A DNA stretch of 27,332 bases, taken from the IMG/VR virus record IMGVR_UViG_3300028920_000227, positions 1 to 27,332 of that record; one strand, given 5' to 3'. Source of the stretch: a virus. Position numbers and translations under genes: made by a program. The notes beneath the pieces were generated by a model that did no database searches, had not been told where the DNA came from, and saw nothing but the letters and a program-made list of their open reading frames with translations. Below, piece by piece: positions 2,557-18,143 of the stretch; positions within the stretch are counted from its first letter, which is position 1, and each line of letters begins with the position of its first letter.

Positions 2557-4740
2557 TCAATTTTCCTGCAAAACAGCCTTATTACCGCTAAGCGCCTCGT
2601 ACCTTGCAAGTATTATATCACAGTGCGCCGGCTCCAATTCCGCCGCGATGCAGGTAAATTCCAACCGCTCAGCCGCGAGCAGCGTTGTACCGCTGCCGGC
2701 AAACGGCTCAAGTATCGTACCGCCTGGTGGCGTAATCAGTTTGCAAAGGTATTCCATGAGTTTGATTGGTTTGACAGTGGCATGAACGTTACTTTCACCG
2801 CGCTCACTGCGGCTGGCCTTGGCTTGGTATAGAAATCTGGTTGCGGTATTTCCTGTGATAGGCGTTGTGCTTTTCTCGGTTGGATTCTCGCCATTTTCGC
2901 AAATACTCGCGGCTACAATCTTTACAATACCCTTGATAGGTGCCTGATTTTCTCCTACTAAATAAATCAAGCAATCGGTATTGCTTACAAGACTGACACC
3001 TTCGATACTCTCGACCGTCAATGGTTTTATGATCTTCTCGCAATCGATTGTGCAATGACCAATGAGCGTGCTTGTCGAGACACTCAATATTGGAAAGGCA
3101 ATTATTGAGTGGGTTTCCATCTGCGTGATGGATATGGTGCCCATCTGGAATAGGGCCATTTGCCTGTTGCCAAATCCACCGGTGCTCAAGCATTCGCTTT
3201 TGCTTGCCGTTTTCTTTCCAGCAAACGTATCGCCGCCCTTTGTCTTGTCTAATCCACATGCGTCATTTATTACCATAAAAAAACGGCTTGCGCCACCGGT
3301 GTCGCCAAAACCGCAACCTACAGTATTATTTTTATCGGTTGCACCATGTTTATATATATTTGATCCCTTAACCCCTGACTGACCTCCCGCCGATTTTCCC
3401 AACTCACCGCTCTGCTTATCCAGCATCGCCGCTGCCGTTTCGTCAAGTATGACGTTGGCGGGGAAGCGGCCGGTACGCTTTTCTGAATCATTCCAATCAT
3501 CCTTGTATCCATCGCGATATTTCAACTCCGAATATGTATTGTGTTGTTTTTGCTCAAGCGTATGCCGTATTTCGCTTGATCGCCTATCTTTATCAGACTG
3601 AAAACCAATCCTCCCCCCATCCACATTAATCCCGCCGCATCCCCATTTGAGCACATTGTCTGCTACCGTTTTTTCGCTGATCGGTTTGCGAGCCAGCACG
3701 ATTGGCTCATTTGCCGGCTTGAGCGCTGTCCCCCAACCGTCCCAGGCTTTGGCGATATCTGTAACCGCCGTGTTATCCCTCGTAAGATCATTATTAGAGC
3801 TATTTTTCCAACCCTTAAGATTCTGATCGTGCTTACCTACAGAACGCCCATCAAATGTTTTTCTTTCAACCAAATCCCTCTCAACCCCTGCCGCCTTGTC
3901 GATAGCCTTACTGATATCCAGAGACTTCGGAAAACCTGAGCCATAAAGCCATTGCAATTGATCGCGAATATCAAACCCGCCGTCCTCAACATTGACAGCC
4001 ATTCGGTGATATGTCCTGGTGCCGCCAAACGACAGAACATGAGCGCCGGGTTTTACCGCGCCGAATACCGCTTGCCAAAACTCAACACCCGGCACATCGT
4101 AATCCCACTTTTTCCCCATAAATTCCAAGCCATACGGCGGATCAGTCACAACAGCATCCACCGTATTTGGCAATAAACCAGTTATCATTGCTTTCGCATC
4201 GCCAACAAATAGTTGGTGCCTTCCCAATTTCCACGTTTCGCCGGCCTTGCACCTTGCCGGAATATCGGCGGGCATATCATCGGCGCCATCTGCCGGTTCA
4301 TCATCGGCCGCGCCGTCGCCGCCTGTTGCCGTGGTGTCATCTTTAAACTTAAACCCCAGCCCGTCCAAATCCTCAGCCGTAAATCCAATTTCCTCCAGGT
4401 CAAACCCGTCCAGCCGCAGACTGTCGAGTGTTTCGCCGAGCACCGCGTTATCCCAATCTGCCAGTTCAGACGTGCGGTTGTCTGCCACAGCAAACGCACT
4501 TAATTCGGTTTCTGATCCATCCATGACGCTAACGGTAATCTCGGTCCATCCCAGCTGCCGTGCGGCCTCCAGCGTACCGTTGCCGGCCCTGACGACGCCT
4601 TTTTGATCGACCACAATGTTTTTGCGTTGGCCGAACCGTTTCAGGCTGCCTTTAATTGCTTCGATATTTTTTGGATCATGCCGCCTGGCATTGGACGGGT
4701 CGGCGACAAGGCTATTGATCGGGACAGTTTTGATATCCAC
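2557..4740 (-). CDS. ParB-domain/adenine- or cytosine-N4 DNA methyltransferase, interrupted by an HNH ORF
   Basis: The 727-residue product starts with a ParB/Srx-like domain (residues 1-95, with GNGTLEAARQLGW) and an acidic linker. A beta-class amino-methyltransferase follows: motif IV DPPYG at 200-204 and the SAM-binding FAGSGTT at 680-686. Such ParB-methyltransferase fusions are common in phages and modify phage DNA against host restriction. The ATG at 4740 follows AAAGGTGAG. The expected continuous motif around SRFF and YQAKASRSERGE is split by about 149 extra codons (residues about 489-637, bases about 2830-3276). That insert encodes an HNH nuclease in a different frame, yet this frame stays open. 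Whether the enzyme is still active is unknown. Confidence 0.85.
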   Translation of the reverse strand: MDIKTVPINSLVADPSNARRHDPKNIEAIKGSLKRFGQRKNIVVDQKGVVRAGNGTLEAARQLGWTEITVSVMDGSETELSAFAVADNRTSELADWDNAVLGETLDSLRLDGFDLEEIGFTAEDLDGLGFKFKDDTTATGGDGAADDEPADGADDMPADIPARCKAGETWKLGRHQLFVGDAKAMITGLLPNTVDAVVTDPPYGLEFMGKKWDYDVPGVEFWQAVFGAVKPGAHVLSFGGTRTYHRMAVNVEDGGFDIRDQLQWLYGSGFPKSLDISKAIDKAAGVERDLVERKTFDGRSVGKHDQNLKGWKNSSNNDLTRDNTAVTDIAKAWDGWGTALKPANEPIVLARKPISEKTVADNVLKWGCGGINVDGGRIGFQSDKDRRSSEIRHTLEQKQHNTYSELKYRDGYKDDWNDSEKRTGRFPANVILDETAAAMLDKQSGELGKSAGGQSGVKGSNIYKHGATDKNNTVGCGFGDTGGASRFFMVINDACGLDKTKGGDTFAGKKTASKSECLSTGGFGNRQMALFQMGTISITQMETHSIIAFPILSVSTSTLIGHCTIDCEKIIKPLTVESIEGVSLVSNTDCLIYLVGENQAPIKGIVKIVAASICENGENPTEKSTTPITGNTATRFLYQAKASRSERGESNVHATVKPIKLMEYLCKLITPPGGTILEPFAGSGTTLLAAERLEFTCIAAELEPAHCDIILARYEALSGNKAVLQEN
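2804..3259 (-). CDS. HNH homing-type endonuclease nested in the methyltransferase gene
   Basis: The 151-residue product reads MWIRQDKGRRYVCWKE at its start and carries a clear HNH core: EHRWIWQQANGPIPDGHHIH, then HADGNPLNN and NIECLDKHAH (residues about 25-67). A C-terminal zinc ribbon follows, CQSCK and YCKDC at about 88-117, ahead of a basic tail. This layout matches free-standing phage homing endonucleases, which nick or cut DNA and spread by recombination. It is read in a different frame from the surrounding methyltransferase and fills nearly the whole inserted block. Its last 8 or so codons run into methyltransferase sequence. Only a weak GGTAA-like ribosome site precedes the ATG, so expression may be low or coupled. 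Confidence 0.85.
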   Translation of the reverse strand: MWIRQDKGRRYVCWKENGKQKRMLEHRWIWQQANGPIPDGHHIHHADGNPLNNCLSNIECLDKHAHWSLHNRLREDHKTIDGREYRRCQSCKQYRLLDLFSRRKSGTYQGYCKDCSREYLRKWRESNREKHNAYHRKYRNQISIPSQGQPQ

Positions 4741-4790: not shown

Positions 4791-5063
4791 TTAGTCAAGC
4801 AAACCCACTACGCAGCCGAGCGGCATATTGATCTGCCGTGCTATTTCCGGCGCTGTGAGGCCCGTACTGCCAAGCTGGCGCACTGTTTCCACCAGGCCAA
4901 CGTTTGCTATTGATTTTTCCGCCGATAGCGTTCTGTGGTCGATTCCGTGCGCCATGTCATGGCAACGCGAGCACAGCGGCACGGTTTTGGTGCCGCCGCG
5001 TGATTTGGGCACAACGTGGTGCCGGCTTGTGGCCGGCTCGCCACATTCAAAACATGCCTGCAC
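4791..5063 (-). CDS. Small HNH nuclease with C-terminal HTH-like segment
   Basis: The 90-residue product has the compact HNH/McrA pattern CFECG, RHHVVPKSRGGTKTVPLC and CHDMAHG in its first 42 residues. The cysteines are zinc ligands and the HH/N-type centre is catalytic. The C-terminal part, GLTAPEIARQINMPLGCVV, looks like a resolvase-type helix-turn-helix. The start is a GTG at 5063 sharing one base with the TAG stop of the upstream gene (TAGTG), after a GGAG site, so translation is coupled. Role is uncertain: a DNA-processing nuclease or a packaging-associated HNH are both possible. Confidence 0.8.
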   Translation of the reverse strand: MQACFECGEPATSRHHVVPKSRGGTKTVPLCSRCHDMAHGIDHRTLSAEKSIANVGLVETVRQLGSTGLTAPEIARQINMPLGCVVGLLD

Positions 5064-5653
5064 TATCTCGCTCCAAATTTTCTAATAAGGTTGAAATATT
5101 TTGCGCCGGTTTCAGGGCCATTGACTTTGGACCATATTCTAACGTCACCGCCTGTCCTTAACGTCAGGCCATGCCATTTGGTACGGCCCAAATCTCCGAC
5201 ACCAAGTTGGGCCATTATTCTGCTCATCCAAAAACGTGCTCCATTTTGGTGATAATGCTTATCGAGCGAATCATAGAGGTTTGCGCAAAACACGTAAATA
5301 TAGCCATATTTTCCAAAACTTGTATGAGCATAATCGACAGCCTGGGCCGCGTATTGCGTATATTTGTTGACCTGGCCTAGTTGTCGGTCGTTTTCCGGCT
5401 CGAAACATTTAAACTCTATGCCGAGCGCCGCTTTTTTATTTTTCCATTCCGTTTTGTCTCTTGGCTGTATGATTGCATCTATACGCAGGTTTTTGCCGCT
5501 GAAATGCCTTCCCCATACCTCGGTTTCAATCTCAAAATGCGGCTCCAATTCATTCAATATCCTGCTGGCCGTCTTTTGCTCACGTACTGGAAAATCCTTG
5601 ACGTTTGGTTGCCATGTGTCCCATTTTCTTTTAAAAAATTCCTGATCACCCAT
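5063..5653 (-). CDS. Putative PD-(D/E)XK-type nuclease
   Basis: The 196-residue product begins MGDQEFFKRKWDTWQPN. Between residues about 45 and 85 it shows a possible PD-(D/E)XK core: an acidic residue in LRIDAIIQPRD, then GIEFKCFE giving the E-x-K pair, then a helix with QVNKYTQYAAQAVDY. This is the layout of many phage and restriction-like nucleases, but the fold assignment is inferred from this motif alone. It is the first gene after the iteron region and is coupled to the downstream HNH gene. It could act in recombination, DNA degradation or as a partner of the nearby methyltransferase; I see no basis to choose. Confidence 0.55.
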   Translation of the reverse strand: MGDQEFFKRKWDTWQPNVKDFPVREQKTASRILNELEPHFEIETEVWGRHFSGKNLRIDAIIQPRDKTEWKNKKAALGIEFKCFEPENDRQLGQVNKYTQYAAQAVDYAHTSFGKYGYIYVFCANLYDSLDKHYHQNGARFWMSRIMAQLGVGDLGRTKWHGLTLRTGGDVRIWSKVNGPETGAKYFNLIRKFGAR

Positions 5654-5719
5654 CTATTTTCCCTATAGTTAATGATTAACGCCGATTATTACGCCAGCCG
5701 TTATACGCAACAAATACCA

Positions 5720-5799
5720 TGGAACATATTGGAACAACCTTGGAACACTGCTTGGAACACAACTTTTTCCAACAATATCAACGTTGTCACAATGGAACA
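5720..5799 (+). repeat. Left iteron block (5 x TGGAACA)
   Basis: Five direct copies of TGGAACA are set at 10, 11, 12 and 40 base steps, so the first four lie on nearly one face of the helix. The innermost copy is extended as TTGTCACAATGGAACAC. The block is the mirror partner of 5905-5985. Confidence 0.85.
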
Positions 5800-5904
5800 C
5801 CTTTTTTGCCATAGCGGTTAATTTTTGAAGTGTAACATTTGTAATAAACATATTACCACACAATTACATTTCGACATATGCATAACACGACCTATACATT
5901 TACG

Positions 5905-5985
5905 TGTTCCACTGTGACAAACATGAAATCATTGACCTTTTCGTGTGTTCCAAGCCCTGTTCCATGGGTGTTCCAAGGTGTTCCA
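5905..5985 (-). repeat. Right iteron block (5 x TGTTCCA, inverted)
   Basis: Five copies of the same heptamer on the opposite strand have spacings 41, 12, 11 and 10. Read on the minus strand, the innermost copy is preceded by TTGTCACAG, matching the left block's extension. The sequence between heptamers is poorly conserved while their positions are kept, which points to protein-binding sites rather than a recent duplication. Confidence 0.85.
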
Positions 5986-5994
5986 AAGCGATAA

Positions 5995-7341
5995 TCAGTA
6001 CAGTTTTGTTACGCTAACGCCAGCCGCCCGATCCATTTCAGTATCGACGGCGTATTCAGTTTTCACGCAGGCGCCAACAAACACGCGCCGGCGTTTTGGT
6101 TCAACCCGTACGTTTTTGTAAATGATGCCGTGTTCGTATCTCATCCATTTGATAAACGCGGCCCTAAAGTCATCGTCAAGCCGTTTGGTAGCGACAATCC
6201 TTGCAAGCTCGGCCTGGCTGAAATGGAGTAGCTGGCAGTCGGCAATTCCCGGCCGCGTATCCAGCGCAAAGCAATCCTCGAAAATTTCCTCAAACCTTCC
6301 GCTATTCTTTTCAATCAACGCGTCCAAGCTATCGGCCTCGGTCCTGATCGGCCCGTGATCTACGGTCAAATCCTTGTAGCAGGCGCGGCATTTCCACAAA
6401 ATCCCTGCCGCCTCGGCCCACAACCGGTCATCGTAGTGTGGATCGGGTTCGCCGTTGATGCGGCCTACCTCGCAATAGATCGCCCGCCGGCGGTCTGCTT
6501 CCTGGCCGCTTAGTTTCGGCTCATCGTTACTTGCGAAAATAAACTTGCATGAGAGCGGCGCAGTGTACGCCTGGTGGCCTTTTTGCTCCACGGGTACATG
6601 GTCGCCACCGGTCAGCATTTTAAACAGCGGAGAGGCCGGGAAATGCCTGTCAGAGCAATCCGGGAACGCCACCAGCCTTTTACCGAGCAGCCCATAGGTC
6701 CAAAAGTTGTCCCCATGCCTGTTTGGCGGCACTTTTGCGGCATATGCCGGACCCATAACCCGCGCCAGAAACCTGAGCAATGCGCCCTTGCCGTTCATGC
6801 CGTCGCCATGCAAATAAACGTATTGTTGCCGGTCGGCTTCCGGCACCAGCAGGCTGCCGATAAAGGCACACAGGGCAGTGGCGTTTTCGGTCCTGCTTAA
6901 AAACTCATCAAAAACCGGTGTTGGCACAGCTGCAACATCAAATGGCAGGCGGTGAAAGCACAGGCCTGCGTCTGATTTTTCCCTGATCATTTTCGGCTCG
7001 GGGATGGCCGGCGTGAAAGCCTTCCAGAATTTCATGGCGGCCTTGGCTCCGGCCTCATCCACGGCGCGGAACATCGGCCAGTTGGTATCATGATGGCAAA
7101 ACCTCAAAATCTCACACGTAACGGCGTTTTCGCTAACGTATTCAACAACCTGCCCGGCGTGTTCCAACAGCACTTCCCTGGCACCAGGCACCGGCTCCAC
7201 GATATGGAAAATCGACCGAAACGGCGGTCCATGTGCGGTGGCGCTTGCCAGCCGGTTGATGGCGTTGCTGATATTGAATTGGATTTCAGCCTTGGTGAAT
7301 CGCGGTTTTTTCTGCCGCCCGCCGGATTCCGTTTCTGACAT
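5995..7341 (-). CDS. SF3 (D5-like) replicative helicase
   Basis: The 448-residue product carries the superfamily 3 helicase core. Walker A is GDGMNGKGAL at residues 179-188, Walker B is LVAFPDCSD near 223-231, and motif C is KFIFASNDEP at 266-275. An arginine-rich ADRRR segment follows. SF3 helicases of phages and plasmids unwind DNA at the origin, usually with a primase. The ATG at 7341 has a GGGAG site and overlaps the end of the primase gene by 56 bases, so the two act as a pair. The C-terminal 100 residues look like a winged-helix region. The gene ends at the edge of the iteron dyad, supporting a role in initiation there. Confidence 0.9.
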   Translation of the reverse strand: MSETESGGRQKKPRFTKAEIQFNISNAINRLASATAHGPPFRSIFHIVEPVPGAREVLLEHAGQVVEYVSENAVTCEILRFCHHDTNWPMFRAVDEAGAKAAMKFWKAFTPAIPEPKMIREKSDAGLCFHRLPFDVAAVPTPVFDEFLSRTENATALCAFIGSLLVPEADRQQYVYLHGDGMNGKGALLRFLARVMGPAYAAKVPPNRHGDNFWTYGLLGKRLVAFPDCSDRHFPASPLFKMLTGGDHVPVEQKGHQAYTAPLSCKFIFASNDEPKLSGQEADRRRAIYCEVGRINGEPDPHYDDRLWAEAAGILWKCRACYKDLTVDHGPIRTEADSLDALIEKNSGRFEEIFEDCFALDTRPGIADCQLLHFSQAELARIVATKRLDDDFRAAFIKWMRYEHGIIYKNVRVEPKRRRVFVGACVKTEYAVDTEMDRAAGVSVTKLY

Positions 7342-8128
7342 TCCTGATTATCTCCCCGTCGTTCATGTGGTCGCCGTCCGTATCGGTTCGCGCAAACGGC
7401 GCACCTATTACCATTGAAATGATGTTTTCCTCGGTGTGGCCCATCAAGGCCAGCGCTTCGCCAGCGGCAAAACACGCCACATGCCGGCCTTTCCAGGTCG
7501 TACCGTAATTTAAAAAATCCTGCACATTACGCGGTAACGCACCGGATTTTATCTTTATATTTTGAGTTGATCTATACTTTTCCGACGCGGTAACCAGTTT
7601 TTTGGCGGCCTCGACCGGCGGCGGGTCGATGTATTCGCCGGTATCGCGGCCGTACAGGATTGCCGTGCACGGGTAATAATACCGTGCGCCATCCTTGCAG
7701 TGCGGATCGGCGGCGCCTTTAAAGATACGCTGCATGATCCGCATTTGTGCCTTGAATATTTCCCAATTATCACTAAAGGCCGTGCTGGTCGGCATCACCA
7801 GCCGGAAGCGGTCGCACACGCGGCCGTGTTTGCTGACCAGATGCGAGCGGGTTGTACCGATAAAGTACGCCAAGCTCGAGCGTTCGCACCAGGCGCGGAC
7901 GGTTTCAAGGGTTGGCTTGCCGTCGTCAAAATCCCAAACGGCTGCCTCGGCGCCGAGGAAGTTTACCGACCGCCGGCGTCCCCCTGACCAGCGGCAGGGG
8001 GACCACGTATGGTTTAGGGATATCCCGGCGAGATCGCGCAACGTGGCGACTGAAACGGTATGAAAACTTTTAATATCTTGCTGGTATTTTCTATTGCTTA
8101 TTGCCGTGGAAATCTGTATATTTCGCAT
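7286..8128 (-). CDS. AEP-like DNA primase
   Basis: From the ATG at 8128 the product is 280 residues. It has the archaeo-eukaryotic primase signature: VWDFDDG at 64-70 for metal binding, TTRSHLVSKHGR near 92-103 for the basic/histidine motif, then RFRLVMP. The C-terminal part (GTTWKGRHVACFAAGEALAL onward) resembles the helical PriCT-type linker found before SF3 helicases. Primase and helicase are separate genes here but overlap by 56 bases. A TTG at 8140 is an alternative start; the ATG is preferred although its GATAGAGA ribosome site is weak. It would make primers for replication by a polymerase not encoded in this window. Confidence 0.82.
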   Translation of the reverse strand: MRNIQISTAISNRKYQQDIKSFHTVSVATLRDLAGISLNHTWSPCRWSGGRRRSVNFLGAEAAVWDFDDGKPTLETVRAWCERSSLAYFIGTTRSHLVSKHGRVCDRFRLVMPTSTAFSDNWEIFKAQMRIMQRIFKGAADPHCKDGARYYYPCTAILYGRDTGEYIDPPPVEAAKKLVTASEKYRSTQNIKIKSGALPRNVQDFLNYGTTWKGRHVACFAAGEALALMGHTEENIISMVIGAPFARTDTDGDHMNDGEIIRNVRNGIRRAAEKTAIHQG

Positions 8129-8158
8129 ATTCTCTATCAAATGTAGCGGTTTGGTGCG

Positions 8159-8940: not shown

Positions 8941-9557
8941 TTGAATTTCCTCCTGCCGTATTCGCCGATGCATATAGCATCGGCAATGCCGTCATTGAAT
9001 CCGCGCCGGCTGCGGTTTTTCATTAGCGCCACGGCATCCGGCCACTGCCTGGTAACAGCCGTCCAGCTTCGCTGTTTGGTGTCCATGCGGCCCTCGATGC
9101 CCTTGTGGATCACCTTTTGCCACGTGCGCGGCGGCACGATATCGATCGGCCAGCCGAAGCTTGCGGCAACGCCAAGCACAATTCCAAAATTCCAACCGAT
9201 TTTCAACACTCCCTGGCGGCCGTCGCGTTGTTTTGCCATGTTGATACATTCCGCCGTTGCGCACTTCGCCTGTTCCCAATCGCTATCATTAATGAATTGA
9301 TCGATCTGCCACAGCTTTTCCTCAATCGCCTCAACATCTGACGGCAAGGTAATCACCCTTTCGATCACAAACCGCACGTTTTCAAACCGATCAATGCTGA
9401 TGGTTTCCACGGCGTCAAACAAAAACTGGTGGACGGTTGCCGCCTCAATTTTCCTTGCCGGCGACAGCGGCATGGGCCATGCGTTGATCAATTCGCCGTC
9501 ACTGCCGAGCAGTGCAAACCCGCCTTTTATTCCAGGATCACAACCGAGATAAAGAAT
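8937..9557 (-). CDS. RuvC-like Holliday junction resolvase, start apparently frameshifted
   Basis: The frame carries RuvC/RNase H-fold marks: YLGCDPGIKGG (first catalytic Asp), a middle segment GWNFGIVLGVAASFGWPI followed by VPPRTWQKVI, and a C-terminal NDGIADAICIGEYGRR with the last acidic residues. Phage RuvC-like enzymes resolve branched DNA before packaging. The conserved first strand lies upstream of any ATG, GTG or TTG in this frame; 9557 is an ATT and is used only to include it. An ATG at 9565, overlapping the previous gene's stop as ATGA, is in another frame by one base. So a one-base indel, a programmed shift or an ATT start must be invoked. The first TTG in frame is at 9491. Confidence 0.75.
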   Translation of the reverse strand: MLYLGCDPGIKGGFALLGSDGELINAWPMPLSPARKIEAATVHQFLFDAVETISIDRFENVRFVIERVITLPSDVEAIEEKLWQIDQFINDSDWEQAKCATAECINMAKQRDGRQGVLKIGWNFGIVLGVAASFGWPIDIVPPRTWQKVIHKGIEGRMDTKQRSWTAVTRQWPDAVALMKNRSRRGFNDGIADAICIGEYGRRKFK

Positions 9558-9737: not shown

Positions 9738-9944
9738 TTAGTCTTTTGAAACACGTTTGAGATAGACACAGGGTCTGGTATACATTTCACCGGCCCACCA
9801 ACAAACTTCTATAACGTCAAATATTTGCCCTTGTAATTCACCAAGACCCCATACCCGTTCACCCTTTCGCGGAACATGCCCTTTTGTGGAGTGGCACAAA
9901 GTCTCATCTGTTTCGACATCGTGGTATTCAATGGATTCATGCAT
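9738..9944 (-). CDS. Unknown 68-aa beta-rich protein
   Basis: The ATG at 9944 has AAAGGT at proper spacing and gives MHESIEYHDVETDETLCH at the start; the longer in-frame start at 10004 would run into the tandem repeat and has no ribosome site. The segment PRKGERVWGLGELQGQIFDV followed by hydrophobic strands looks like a small SH3-like barrel. The product ends LKRVSKD, the same three last residues as the 64-aa protein at 8514, within a duplicated 19-base junction. Function unknown. Confidence 0.6.
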   Translation of the reverse strand: MHESIEYHDVETDETLCHSTKGHVPRKGERVWGLGELQGQIFDVIEVCWWAGEMYTRPCVYLKRVSKD

Positions 9945-9974
9945 ATTCAAATAACCTTTGATTCTTGAAAATCG

Positions 9975-10018
9975 TCCGCAACTTCTAGTAAATTTTTTCC
10001 GCAACTTCTAGTAAATTT
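9975..10018. repeat. Tandem 21-bp repeat (period 23) upstream of the 68-aa gene
   Basis: Two exact copies of TCCGCAACTTCTAGTAAATT, each followed by one more T, begin at 9975 and 9998. They lie 30-75 bases upstream of the start at 9944, in the gap after the tiny hydrophobic ORF. Two near-helical-turn-spaced copies suggest a repressor or activator site. Confidence 0.7.
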
Positions 10019-10031
10019 CGTCAATAATCTT

Positions 10032-10112
10032 TTATTTAATGAATATCCACAAAAGCAAACCGCCCCATATAGGCGAAAAAATCAAAACTGTAGTAACAAT
10101 ATCCAAGAACAT
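10032..10112 (-). CDS. Tiny hydrophobic membrane peptide (26 aa)
   Basis: An ATG at 10112 with AAAGGTGA at good spacing opens a frame beginning MFLDIVTTVLIFSPIWGGLL and ending in FIK. It is one long hydrophobic stretch with a basic last residue. It resembles the 24-aa peptide at 8429 in kind but not clearly in sequence. Function unknown. Confidence 0.5.
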   Translation of the reverse strand: MFLDIVTTVLIFSPIWGGLLLWIFIK

Positions 10113-11722: not shown

Positions 11723-12371
11723 TCCAGCAGCCTTATACATTGTTTATGATATCGAAACCGTGCCGGCCGCGAATGTTGACGAGTTTGCCGCGCAGGCTGA
11801 CGTGAAACCCAAGGCTAATTTGGTTGACCCAAAAAAAATCGAGGCCGACATTGCCGCCAAGCGCCAGGCAATCATCGATAAGGCCGGCCTGCACTGGTGG
11901 ACCGGGTTTATTTGTTGTATAGGAGCCAAGAATATTGAAAATAGCGAGTGTTTCAGCGTTTGTGACAATGATGAAAAAAGCATTTTGGAGCGTTTTTTCA
12001 TGTGGCTGCAGGCGCAAAGGCCAGTCAGTAAAGAAATGCCAACACTGATCGGCAAATCCTCGGCTGATTTCGACGCGCCGTTTGTTGTCGGCCGCGCAAT
12101 GGCGCATGATATCGGCGTACCGATGGAATTTCGCCGATTCAAATATGCTGACATTGACCACATTTTCGGCTATGGTCACGGCGCATCGCAAACCACAAGC
12201 CTGAATAACTACGCTTGGGGACTTGGCATGGAAGGCAAGCTGGACGGCATGAGCGGCGCAGATGTTGCCGGTCTGTTTGCCGCTGGCGAATACGAAAAAA
12301 TCCGCAAGTATTGTATGCAGGACGTTGAATTAACCGCCGCGATTTGGGAGCGGTATTTAAAGGTGTTTTGA
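11715..12371 (+). CDS. DEDDy-type 3'-5' exonuclease
   Basis: The 218-residue product has the DnaQ-like motifs: YIVYDIETVP near residues 8-17 (Exo I Asp and Glu), IGKSSADFDAPFVVGRA in the middle (Exo II Asp) and KYCMQDVELT near the end (Exo III, Tyr and Asp spaced as in DEDDy). The middle block resembles PolB-type proofreading domains, but no polymerase domain is attached. It would trim 3' ends during repair or recombination with SSB and the Sak4-like protein. AAGGGAAAAGGG gives a strong ribosome site. The gene overlaps both neighbours, with a shared A at the TGATG junction downstream. Confidence 0.85.
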   Translation: MIDPAALYIVYDIETVPAANVDEFAAQADVKPKANLVDPKKIEADIAAKRQAIIDKAGLHWWTGFICCIGAKNIENSECFSVCDNDEKSILERFFMWLQAQRPVSKEMPTLIGKSSADFDAPFVVGRAMAHDIGVPMEFRRFKYADIDHIFGYGHGASQTTSLNNYAWGLGMEGKLDGMSGADVAGLFAAGEYEKIRKYCMQDVELTAAIWERYLKVF

Positions 12372-12616
12372 TGGAAACTGCAAGGGATGTAATTCTTGAG
12401 GATATCATGTCAATGTATTGCTCAATATGCATTAAGCAAGGGCGTATTGAAATTATCAATAATGAAGGAAAATTATTGTATCAAAACATTGACGATTTTG
12501 ACTATCCATCCTTTGCCGCGTTGGAATATATTCTGGCATTGTCTTTTGAATACGTTATAAGTGAGGAAAGAAACCATGCAAATCAGGAAAGCAGCGAGAC
12601 AACATCGACCACTTAA
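12371..12616 (+). CDS. Unknown 81-aa protein
   Basis: The ATG at 12371 overlaps the exonuclease stop as TGATG and has AAAGGTG upstream. The product begins METARDVILEDIMSMYCSIC and contains GRIEIINNEGKLLYQNID, a beta pair, then a helix FAALEYILALSFEYV. The last 41 bases overlap the Sak4-like gene. Operon position suggests a replication/recombination accessory role. No family recognised. Confidence 0.65.
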   Translation: METARDVILEDIMSMYCSICIKQGRIEIINNEGKLLYQNIDDFDYPSFAALEYILALSFEYVISEERNHANQESSETTSTT

Positions 12617-15851: not shown

Positions 15852-18143
15852 TTACATCACGCCGCCGATGCGGTGTCCCTCAAAATGGCATCGTCCATTT
15901 ACAGCGGTAACTACAGGTGTTCCGGTTACAGATTCAAGAATATTAACGTGTACATATTCGCCAGCTTCAAGGTAAAGAGTACTGCTACCGCGAAAATTTG
16001 GCGCTAATGATGCCGTTGAAGGGGCCTCCCAACGGTCTAACCATGATCCTCCATACGCCGCGCCGTTTTTGTATAATTCCATGTTCATGTATTGCGTTGC
16101 ATTAACCGATAGGGATTGCATTTGTAAATAGACATTAAAAACGTAAAACCCGGCAATCGGCGCCGTAAATGTTGTATTTGAGCTAAATGCGTTATGCGTG
16201 TCGTAACGTTTTGTTTGAAATTGAACCGTGTTGGTTACGCCACCGCTCATACTTTGGCCGGTTGTGTCGGTTATATATTTAAATGCCACAACCTCACTCG
16301 CCGCGATTGACGACGGGCCGGATAGGCGCTCTATGGAAAAATAGTTATCTGTCCCTTGCGACAAAAATTCGCAATTGGCGTCGTTGCTGTCCATCGAAAT
16401 CCGTACTGTGTCGCCTGCGTCCAGCCAGGCAATGTCTCTAACAGCAACACTGGTATTAAGGCCTGTTGTTGTCGATGAATAGTACTCGCGGTTAACGCCT
16501 AGATATGTGCCTGTGGATGGCGTTGTTGAGTTTTTCATAATGCGCAATTGCGCGTAACTGGTAGTCCCTGCGCTTGCCGTCAATTCCCAAAATACGTGTG
16601 CATATATTTCATAATAACCGGAGACAGGCGCCGTATATCTGTGGCCTGAGGACGCTGTAGTGCCAGTAGAGCCAAGATTTTCCATGCCGGTGTGTGTATC
16701 GAATTGCAATAAACCAAATTGTAGCCATTGTTCTGTCGTGCCGATTGTATCGCCGCCGCCGCCCGTAACTTTTGCCGCCACAATTCTTGTTTCACCTTCG
16801 TTCGACATGACCGTGTTGCTTGACCAGCCGGCTACAGGAATAAGATCTGTCTGTAAATAAACTCTATCTTGCGCGGCCCATACAAACGGGAGTGTTGCAC
16901 TCTGCGCTCCCCAGGTTTGGCTGCCACTCAAATATGATAATGCAAACGAAGTAGTAGAATTAAATTTAACCCTTCCGTTATATGATGGGCCAGTAGCATC
17001 ATAAAACGAAACCTTGCCTACCATATGGCTATTTCCTGAAACGACAAATTTTGAATTATCTAACACAACCCCGTCAGGGGGACTAAAAGTTATGCTTCCA
17101 GTAAATGCCCCTGTTGTTTCTAGGTCAATATATCCATTTATTTGAATGCTATCACCAACCCTTCGCCATCTAAAAATTCTTGTAGAATCCCCAAGAGTGA
17201 AATTTGTAAATGTTGGCTCATAGTCAACCCAATCCGTCATCGCCGGACCATACACCTTTGTTTGCGGTCCGGTTTCGATTGTGCTCACCTGCAAATCCCA
17301 AGCGCTTGCGTTGGTGCTGGCAATGTGCAGGATAAGCCGGTAGTCATCGTTTCCCGCCTGCGGCTGCCAGGTTGTTTCAAAAACGCCTTGCGTTGCGTTA
17401 AGTTCGTACGTGTGCGGTTGGATAAGGTTGGTGCCGTCCTTGTCGTATATGTAAACGGCCAAATCCTCGGCTGCAAAATTAGCGCTGCCCTGGAAATAAA
17501 ACTTGGTTTTCATAAGCTGCGGCATGTCTTTAAAGATTTTATCAATGGTAAAATCAAACGCCACACCTTCGCCCTGGCGGTTTGCCGCATCCTTGCTGAG
17601 CTTGTAATCCTGCGCACCGATAAGCGGGTTGCTGGAGTTTGCCGCCCAAGTCACGTTTGGGCTGCCGCCTGTGCCGTCATCGGGGACCGTATCGTCTGGC
17701 GAGCCGTCGTCTGTGTCCTCGTATTCCGCGCCGTCGCTCATCGTAATGTAGTTGATACCGCCTGCGCCGCCTGCGCCTAGGTCGGTCCAGGCGCCAGCCG
17801 CGTACACGCGCACGGTATCGGTTGCCGTGTTGTAATAGCAATCGCCATCTTCGGCGGCGCTGTCCTTGTTGGTAACATAGGCCGCATCATCGGCGAAATT
17901 GGGAAAATACTGCGCATAGTCGCCGATATCAACCCAGCCGCCGTCAGCATATAGCCGGCAGGTATGGCGGGTTGTATTGTAGTAAAAATCACCGTCATCG
18001 GCCGCGCTGCCTTTTGCCGTCACGTAGGCCGCATCGTTTGCATATTCGGCCAGTGAGCTTGCCTCGTTTTCAATGCTCAAGTCGCTCGGTGATCCTACCG
18101 TAGTGCCTTCGCTAAAACGCAGTTTTCTGATTTCGCCTGCCAT
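15852..18143 (-). CDS. Tail fibre / receptor-binding protein with C1q-like domains
   Basis: This 763-residue protein is last in the tail operon, the usual fibre position. The N-terminus holds two tandem 39-residue repeats (about 36-74 and 85-123): DAAYVTAKGSAADDGDFYYN and DAAYVTNKDSAAEDGDCYYN, each ending near W.D.G. Two C1q/TNF-like jelly-roll domains follow at the C-terminus: one about 480-610 (YTAPVSGYYEIYAHVFWEL) and one about 640-763 (FTAPIAGFYVFNVYLQM). C1q domains trimerise and bind ligands, so host receptor binding is likely. The middle region (about 290-430) is beta-rich. It overlaps the upstream gene by one base (TAATG). Confidence 0.8.
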   Translation of the reverse strand: MAGEIRKLRFSEGTTVGSPSDLSIENEASSLAEYANDAAYVTAKGSAADDGDFYYNTTRHTCRLYADGGWVDIGDYAQYFPNFADDAAYVTNKDSAAEDGDCYYNTATDTVRVYAAGAWTDLGAGGAGGINYITMSDGAEYEDTDDGSPDDTVPDDGTGGSPNVTWAANSSNPLIGAQDYKLSKDAANRQGEGVAFDFTIDKIFKDMPQLMKTKFYFQGSANFAAEDLAVYIYDKDGTNLIQPHTYELNATQGVFETTWQPQAGNDDYRLILHIASTNASAWDLQVSTIETGPQTKVYGPAMTDWVDYEPTFTNFTLGDSTRIFRWRRVGDSIQINGYIDLETTGAFTGSITFSPPDGVVLDNSKFVVSGNSHMVGKVSFYDATGPSYNGRVKFNSTTSFALSYLSGSQTWGAQSATLPFVWAAQDRVYLQTDLIPVAGWSSNTVMSNEGETRIVAAKVTGGGGDTIGTTEQWLQFGLLQFDTHTGMENLGSTGTTASSGHRYTAPVSGYYEIYAHVFWELTASAGTTSYAQLRIMKNSTTPSTGTYLGVNREYYSSTTTGLNTSVAVRDIAWLDAGDTVRISMDSNDANCEFLSQGTDNYFSIERLSGPSSIAASEVVAFKYITDTTGQSMSGGVTNTVQFQTKRYDTHNAFSSNTTFTAPIAGFYVFNVYLQMQSLSVNATQYMNMELYKNGAAYGGSWLDRWEAPSTASLAPNFRGSSTLYLEAGEYVHVNILESVTGTPVVTAVNGRCHFEGHRIGGVM

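Follow-up and report, generated by a model that had tools for sequence, protein, structure and literature searches.

A two-armed TGGAACA iteron array next to a D5-type helicase gene is a likely replication origin of a tailed phage

A viral DNA record of 27,332 bp from an uncultured phage (IMG/VR record IMGVR_UViG_3300028920_000227, referred to here over its whole length as the window) contains, directly 3' of a gene for a D5/DUF5906 superfamily-3 helicase, an array of ten exact copies of the heptamer TGGAACA, five per strand and facing inward, within 266 bp (positions 5720–5985). On the basis of sequence comparison and of analogy with known systems, it is likely that this array is a replication origin onto which the phage's own helicase loads itself. 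The layout recurs in a syntenic phage, designated L009, in other phage lineages and at the annotated origin of Streptococcus thermophilus phage Sfi21, which supports the origin call of an earlier, sequence-only reading of this DNA. The "unusual two-armed design" of that reading was overstated, because the design is already known as the standard layout of the origins of Staphylococcus aureus pathogenicity islands (SaPIs) and phage-inducible chromosomal islands (PICIs) (PMC6092414, PMC7581432), as well as of Sfi21.

The plus-strand heptamers start at positions 5720, 5730, 5741, 5753 and 5793 and the minus-strand heptamers at 5905, 5946, 5958, 5969 and 5979; each arm comprises a tight group of four (the far arm at 5720–5759, plus strand, and the helicase-proximal arm at 5946–5985, minus strand) and a more distant inner iteron. 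On recount, the reported symmetry around position 5852 was exact, with gaps of 10, 11, 12 and 40 in one arm and 41, 12, 11 and 10 in the other, and with pair centres at 5852.5 for the four outer pairs and 5852.0 for the inner pair. Given two five-site arms, the naive chance of such mirrored gaps is approximately 1e-6. The heptamer occurs 15 times in the window compared to 3.65 expected, a count attained in none of 100 shuffles. At a helical period of 10.5 bp, the offsets within an arm amount to 0, 0.95, 2.0, 3.14 and ~7.0 turns, which places the iterons on one face of the helix (P ~0.009 per arm for random gaps). Together, the outer arms make up an inverted repeat of 42 nt with 86% complementarity, although the bases between the heptamers have diverged, as had been noted: in the tight arms, 6 of the 12 spacer bases agree and 6 differ. 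The extension said to be common to the inner pair is likewise present, the 17-mer TTGTCACARTGGAACAC being confined to the two inner sites, 5784–5800 on the plus strand (iteron plus extension, TTGTCACAATGGAACAC) and 5904–5920 on the minus strand (iteron plus extension, TTGTCACAGTGGAACAC). The box shared by this pair, TTGTCACA, has one further copy in the window, at 11961. Between the inner iterons lies the AT-rich core (5800–5904), the proposed melting region, with 31% GC over 105 bp compared to 50% for the window, which is among the lowest 0.8% of all 105-bp windows. The lowest-GC stretches of the window are found elsewhere, at 9942–10046 and 12445–12500, both near gene boundaries.

The array sits in a 341-bp gap (5654–5994) between two minus-strand genes. 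It begins 10 bp past the stop codon of the helicase gene (minus strand), the nearest iteron ending at 5985 and the stop codon at 5995, and the only open reading frame that overlaps it is a mechanical, TTG-initiated one of 64 amino acids (5669–5863), in line with the earlier statement that the array contains no gene. The helicase, the proposed initiator whose C-terminal part is the candidate iteron binder, is a 448-residue protein encoded at 5995–7341 on the minus strand (Pfam DUF5906, E-value 3.5e-14). Adjacent to it, at 7286–8140 on the same strand, is a gene for a 284-residue primase-like protein (PHROG DNA primase, 2.8e-4), so the placement of the array beside primase-helicase genes was correctly described. 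Among database proteins, the PriCT-1 primase of phage ctKpZ937 matches the primase-like protein best, at 34% identity. The gene for the primase-like protein overlaps the start of the helicase gene by 56 bp (7286–7341) in a different frame, and in many relatives the two are one fused protein; in the window, the two frames may be translated separately or joined by frameshifting. At the origins of phages lambda (the O iterons) and P4 (ori/crr), iterons and an AT-rich region are bound by a phage initiator, which in P4 is the alpha protein, a primase-helicase. In lambda, the iterons are located within gene O, whose product recruits DnaB by way of P; the window array, unlike that of lambda, is intergenic.

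The only solved relative of the window helicase that was detectable by sequence is the SaPI5 primase-helicase (PDB 7ola; phmmer E-value 4.7e-7). A structural model of the helicase was built from 37 sequences (mean predicted local distance difference test score, pLDDT, of 66); a single-sequence model (pLDDT 41) was unusable. Foldseek matched the model best to 7ola (1.1e-12), followed by NrS-1, African swine fever virus PrimPol and mpox E5, with whole-chain TM-scores of only 0.4–0.5, so that the fold matches support membership in the D5 helicase family and not a detailed structure. The Pox_D5 domain matches the C-terminal region of several homologues of the helicase. Sequence and model together point to an initiator that is a D5-type helicase related to SaPI Rep and that, by analogy, would load itself.

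Several known origins resemble the window array. In PICIs, the origin is found immediately 3' of the initiator gene and invariably has two sets of iterons around an AT-rich region (PMC6092414). SaPI origins follow rep directly, are recognized by the C-terminal domain of Rep and appear to bind two hexamers (PMC7581432). The window array also lies immediately 3' of the gene of its proposed initiator, which is related to SaPI5 Rep by sequence and fold. It differs from the SaPI/PICI systems in belonging to a tailed phage with terminase and tail genes, in its iteron word, in the presence of the primase-like protein as a separate gene and in the near-perfect mirror of its spacing. In phage Sfi21, a 302-bp annotated origin (phage inhibitory sequence) directly follows a helicase gene whose product is homologous to that of the window (hhalign probability 99.8%, E-value 4e-30, at an identity of only 22%). 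This origin contains eleven GTTAC/GTAAC pentamers around a core of 9% GC and shares the two-armed layout, but its pentamers occur in both orientations within each cluster and form no clean mirror. The putative origin of the staphylococcal cassette chromosome mec (SCCmec) element with Cch2 likewise has its iterons just downstream of a D5/Primase_Cterm helicase gene and read by the C-terminal domain (PMC7581432); unlike those of the window array, its AAGTG iterons number only three, within a direct-repeat region of 23 bp, and form no two-armed mirror.

Relatives were collected by searching with a two-sequence alignment of the window helicase and a homologue from a Silvanigrella phage, which yielded 80 loci; a five-sequence helicase alignment was too divergent to serve as a query. 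Scans of viral contigs with single proteins (the helicase, the large terminase subunit TerL or a Sak4-like protein) and with the DNA pattern of the left arm gave no relatives. The phage collection contained no similar DNA, and blastn of the array gap against phages was without a match. The most informative relative is L009, in which the gene order around the array is that of the window (primase, helicase, array, ParB/methyltransferase, HNH, TerL, portal), with TerL 47% and the helicase ~29% identical. Its array occupies the same place but is built from another heptamer, GTAAGTA, around a core of 18% GC. Two-armed arrays directly after the helicase gene were also recognized in several other loci, with words quite different from TGGAACA: GTGGTCA (L049, L059, L076), GGTCCAA (L063, L067), GAGGGTT (L070, L075, L081), CAGGGCA (L079), TTGGGGA (L082) and AGTGACA (L083, L085). 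The array of L083 is a perfect mirror, with iterons 18, 29 and 38 and then 144, 153 and 164 bp past the stop codon, and its core has 39% GC in a locus of 62% GC. Terminase, portal or head genes are present in L067, L081 and L082, which are therefore phages too. A variation in position is seen in the complete genome of phage ctKpZ937 (MW202458, L008), where a two-armed GTAACAG/GTAGCAG array with an AT-rich core (11968–12299) is found a short distance upstream of a D5-type helicase gene and not after it. Of the conservation expected in related phages, only that of the layout was seen, in distant phages with other words; the searches turned up no close relative that carries TGGAACA itself.

To quantify this association, the helicases were clustered at 50% identity and an array was sought within 400 bp downstream. 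Such an array follows the helicase gene in 7 of the 18 clusters compared to 15 of 1333 other 400-bp windows; when the window itself is left out, the figure is 6 of 17 clusters (Fisher P = 7e-8). Two loci that are related through TerL, L096 and L102, retain TerL and the ParB/methyltransferase but lack this helicase beside them, and neither has a two-armed array. Because L009 has the array and these two loci do not, the array goes with the helicase and not with the terminase or ParB-like gene. It is accordingly very improbable that the array is a parS-like partition site or a packaging site, to be recognized by the ParB-like/methyltransferase protein or by the terminase. In favour of such a site one could cite the location of these genes ~1–5 kb from the array; a further point against it is that the helicase gene is also followed by arrays in phages whose neighbouring genes differ.

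Which protein reads the iterons is indicated by covariation among the relatives. In a cluster of eight members, about nine iteron positions are kept while all copies switch together between GGTCA(A) and GGTCCA(A), and the residues that are fixed differently between the two groups are concentrated in the C-terminal domain of the helicase (8 of 64, compared to 5 of 370 elsewhere; P = 1e-4). In one member, L062, the helicase core is about equally close to both groups, and the C-terminus and the iterons side with the GGTCCA group. These sequence patterns, together with the analogy to the C-terminal domains of Cch2, shown to be an iteron reader, and of SaPI Rep, described as one (PMC7581432), indirectly support the reading of iterons by the C-terminal domain of the helicase. 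They also argue against an origin at which another phage or host initiator binds the iterons and recruits the helicase, an explanation that we consider unlikely. The extra box TTGTCACA of the inner pair might indeed be read by a second protein, and the array gap of L009 holds a canonical DnaA box (TTATCCACA, at 9212–9220); in the window, DnaA-box-like sites are no more numerous than expected by chance, and the array contains no perfect one.

If the array functions as an origin for its own helicase, a mechanism can be suggested. The D5/DUF5906 helicase would bind the TGGAACA iterons via its C-terminal domain, and each arm, with its five iterons on one face of the helix, would nucleate one helicase assembly. 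Because of the symmetry of the arms and the two-hexamer model for SaPI Rep, we infer that the mirrored arms would set two assemblies head to head across the AT-rich core. The core would then melt and two hexamers would load, and these would leave in opposite directions, giving bidirectional replication with the adjacent primase.

A number of observations weigh against this scheme or against its generality. The C-terminus of the window helicase is modelled with low confidence (pLDDT ~40–66) and has neither a Pfam DNA-binding match nor a Pox_D5 match, and the link between helicase C-terminus and iterons comes from relatives and not from the window phage. Since the array adjoins the end of the gene that encodes the C-terminus, recombination that moved both as one block could look like co-adaptation. 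The GC skew of the window, which had been proposed as a check on the origin, does not change sign at the array, in a record that is probably a fragment and in which gene direction confounds skew. The enrichment test carries a mild bias, as the best member of each cluster was scored downstream and one representative elsewhere. By the same 400-bp test, 11 of the 18 helicase clusters, including the largest (33 members), have no such array, and the distant helicase loci L004, L005 and L007 show no comparable array. The two-armed layout after the helicase gene is therefore common but not universal.

A regulatory role was also considered, in which a phage regulator would bind the array as an operator/promoter complex that serves the minus-strand genes on its far side (start codon at 5653). 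The array does lie in the gap upstream of the next gene, ~67 bp from its start codon. That gene (5063–5653, minus strand) encodes a 196-residue protein that appears nuclease-like by eye (IDAII...LGIEFK) and matches no database family at E-values up to 0.1. With ten sites across 266 bp, mirrored spacing and an AT-rich core, the array goes beyond ordinary operators. Promoter-like matches near it, like terminator-like ones, are no more frequent than expected by chance, and the layout is seen again behind homologous helicase genes of other phages; an operator is accordingly quite improbable as the sole explanation, and the array may serve both as an origin and in autoregulation. There is very little to recommend a phage attachment site (attP) with integrase arm-type sites on both sides of the core: clusters of short sites flanking a core are also known in attP regions, but neither the window record, which is probably a fragment, nor L009 contains a tyrosine integrase, and where an integrase is present, in four related records, its distance from the array is ~3.5–17 kb.

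With replication initiation by the phage's own helicase as the preferred explanation, the distribution of the arrays suggests a more general proposal, towards which we lean slightly. Rather than a hallmark of PICIs, two-armed iteron origins would be a mobile origin-helicase cassette that is widespread among tailed phages. Specificity would shift jointly in the D5 C-terminal domain and in every iteron copy, with site positions kept; the near-perfect mirror of the window and L083 would reflect two identical helicase complexes placed head to head. What is notable here is this mirror with five heptamers per arm, the occurrence of the layout across tailed phages and the indication that the iterons are read by the C-terminus of the helicase. 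The number of phage origins mapped so far is small, and if this view is right, the position of a D5/DUF5906 helicase gene would often predict the place and rough layout of the origin, even in uncultured phages. The phages found here extend the two-armed layout to several tailed-phage lineages, which suggests a common pool of origin cassettes from which both satellites and phages draw. Iterons whose letters switch while their positions are kept provide a natural series for decoding recognition between the helicase C-terminus and the iterons.

The window record is linear and lacks end repeats, and is thus probably a fragment. Its genes encode the small and large terminase subunits (TerS and TerL), a ParB-like/methyltransferase, an HNH protein, the DUF5906 helicase and the primase-like protein, as well as a single-stranded DNA-binding protein, a Holliday-junction resolvase, an endolysin, a Sak4-like protein and tail proteins that include a tape measure and a minor tail protein. 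PICI satellites are small, carry an integrase and lack a virion gene set of their own; as the record has genes for TerL, TerS, a tape measure and a minor tail protein, it is by its gene content a tailed phage and not a satellite. A scan of GTDB genomes with TerL for a host returned nothing. The ParB/methyltransferase (2557–4740) has 727 residues, compared to 427 in L009, with ~290 residues inserted between the halves of the methylase match (the phrog_498 match extends to residue 358, and from 645 a different methylase family takes over); the insert could be a target-recognition domain or an intein. A 763-residue protein (15852–18143) with weak C1q/TNF-like matches in its C-terminal part is perhaps a receptor-binding tail protein.

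Among the relatives, another arrangement of repeats was observed in the large helicase cluster that lacks a downstream array. Five of the loci (L018, 1214–1533; L044, 2101–2364; L054, 290–617; L036, 915–1225; L038, 1376–1811) contain 7–9 copies of one heptamer in mixed orientation, the words being GACATAA, ATGCCCC, AACAGGC and ATGTCCC. These clusters lie ~2.5–6 kb upstream of fused primase-helicase genes and are possibly origins of their own or operators.
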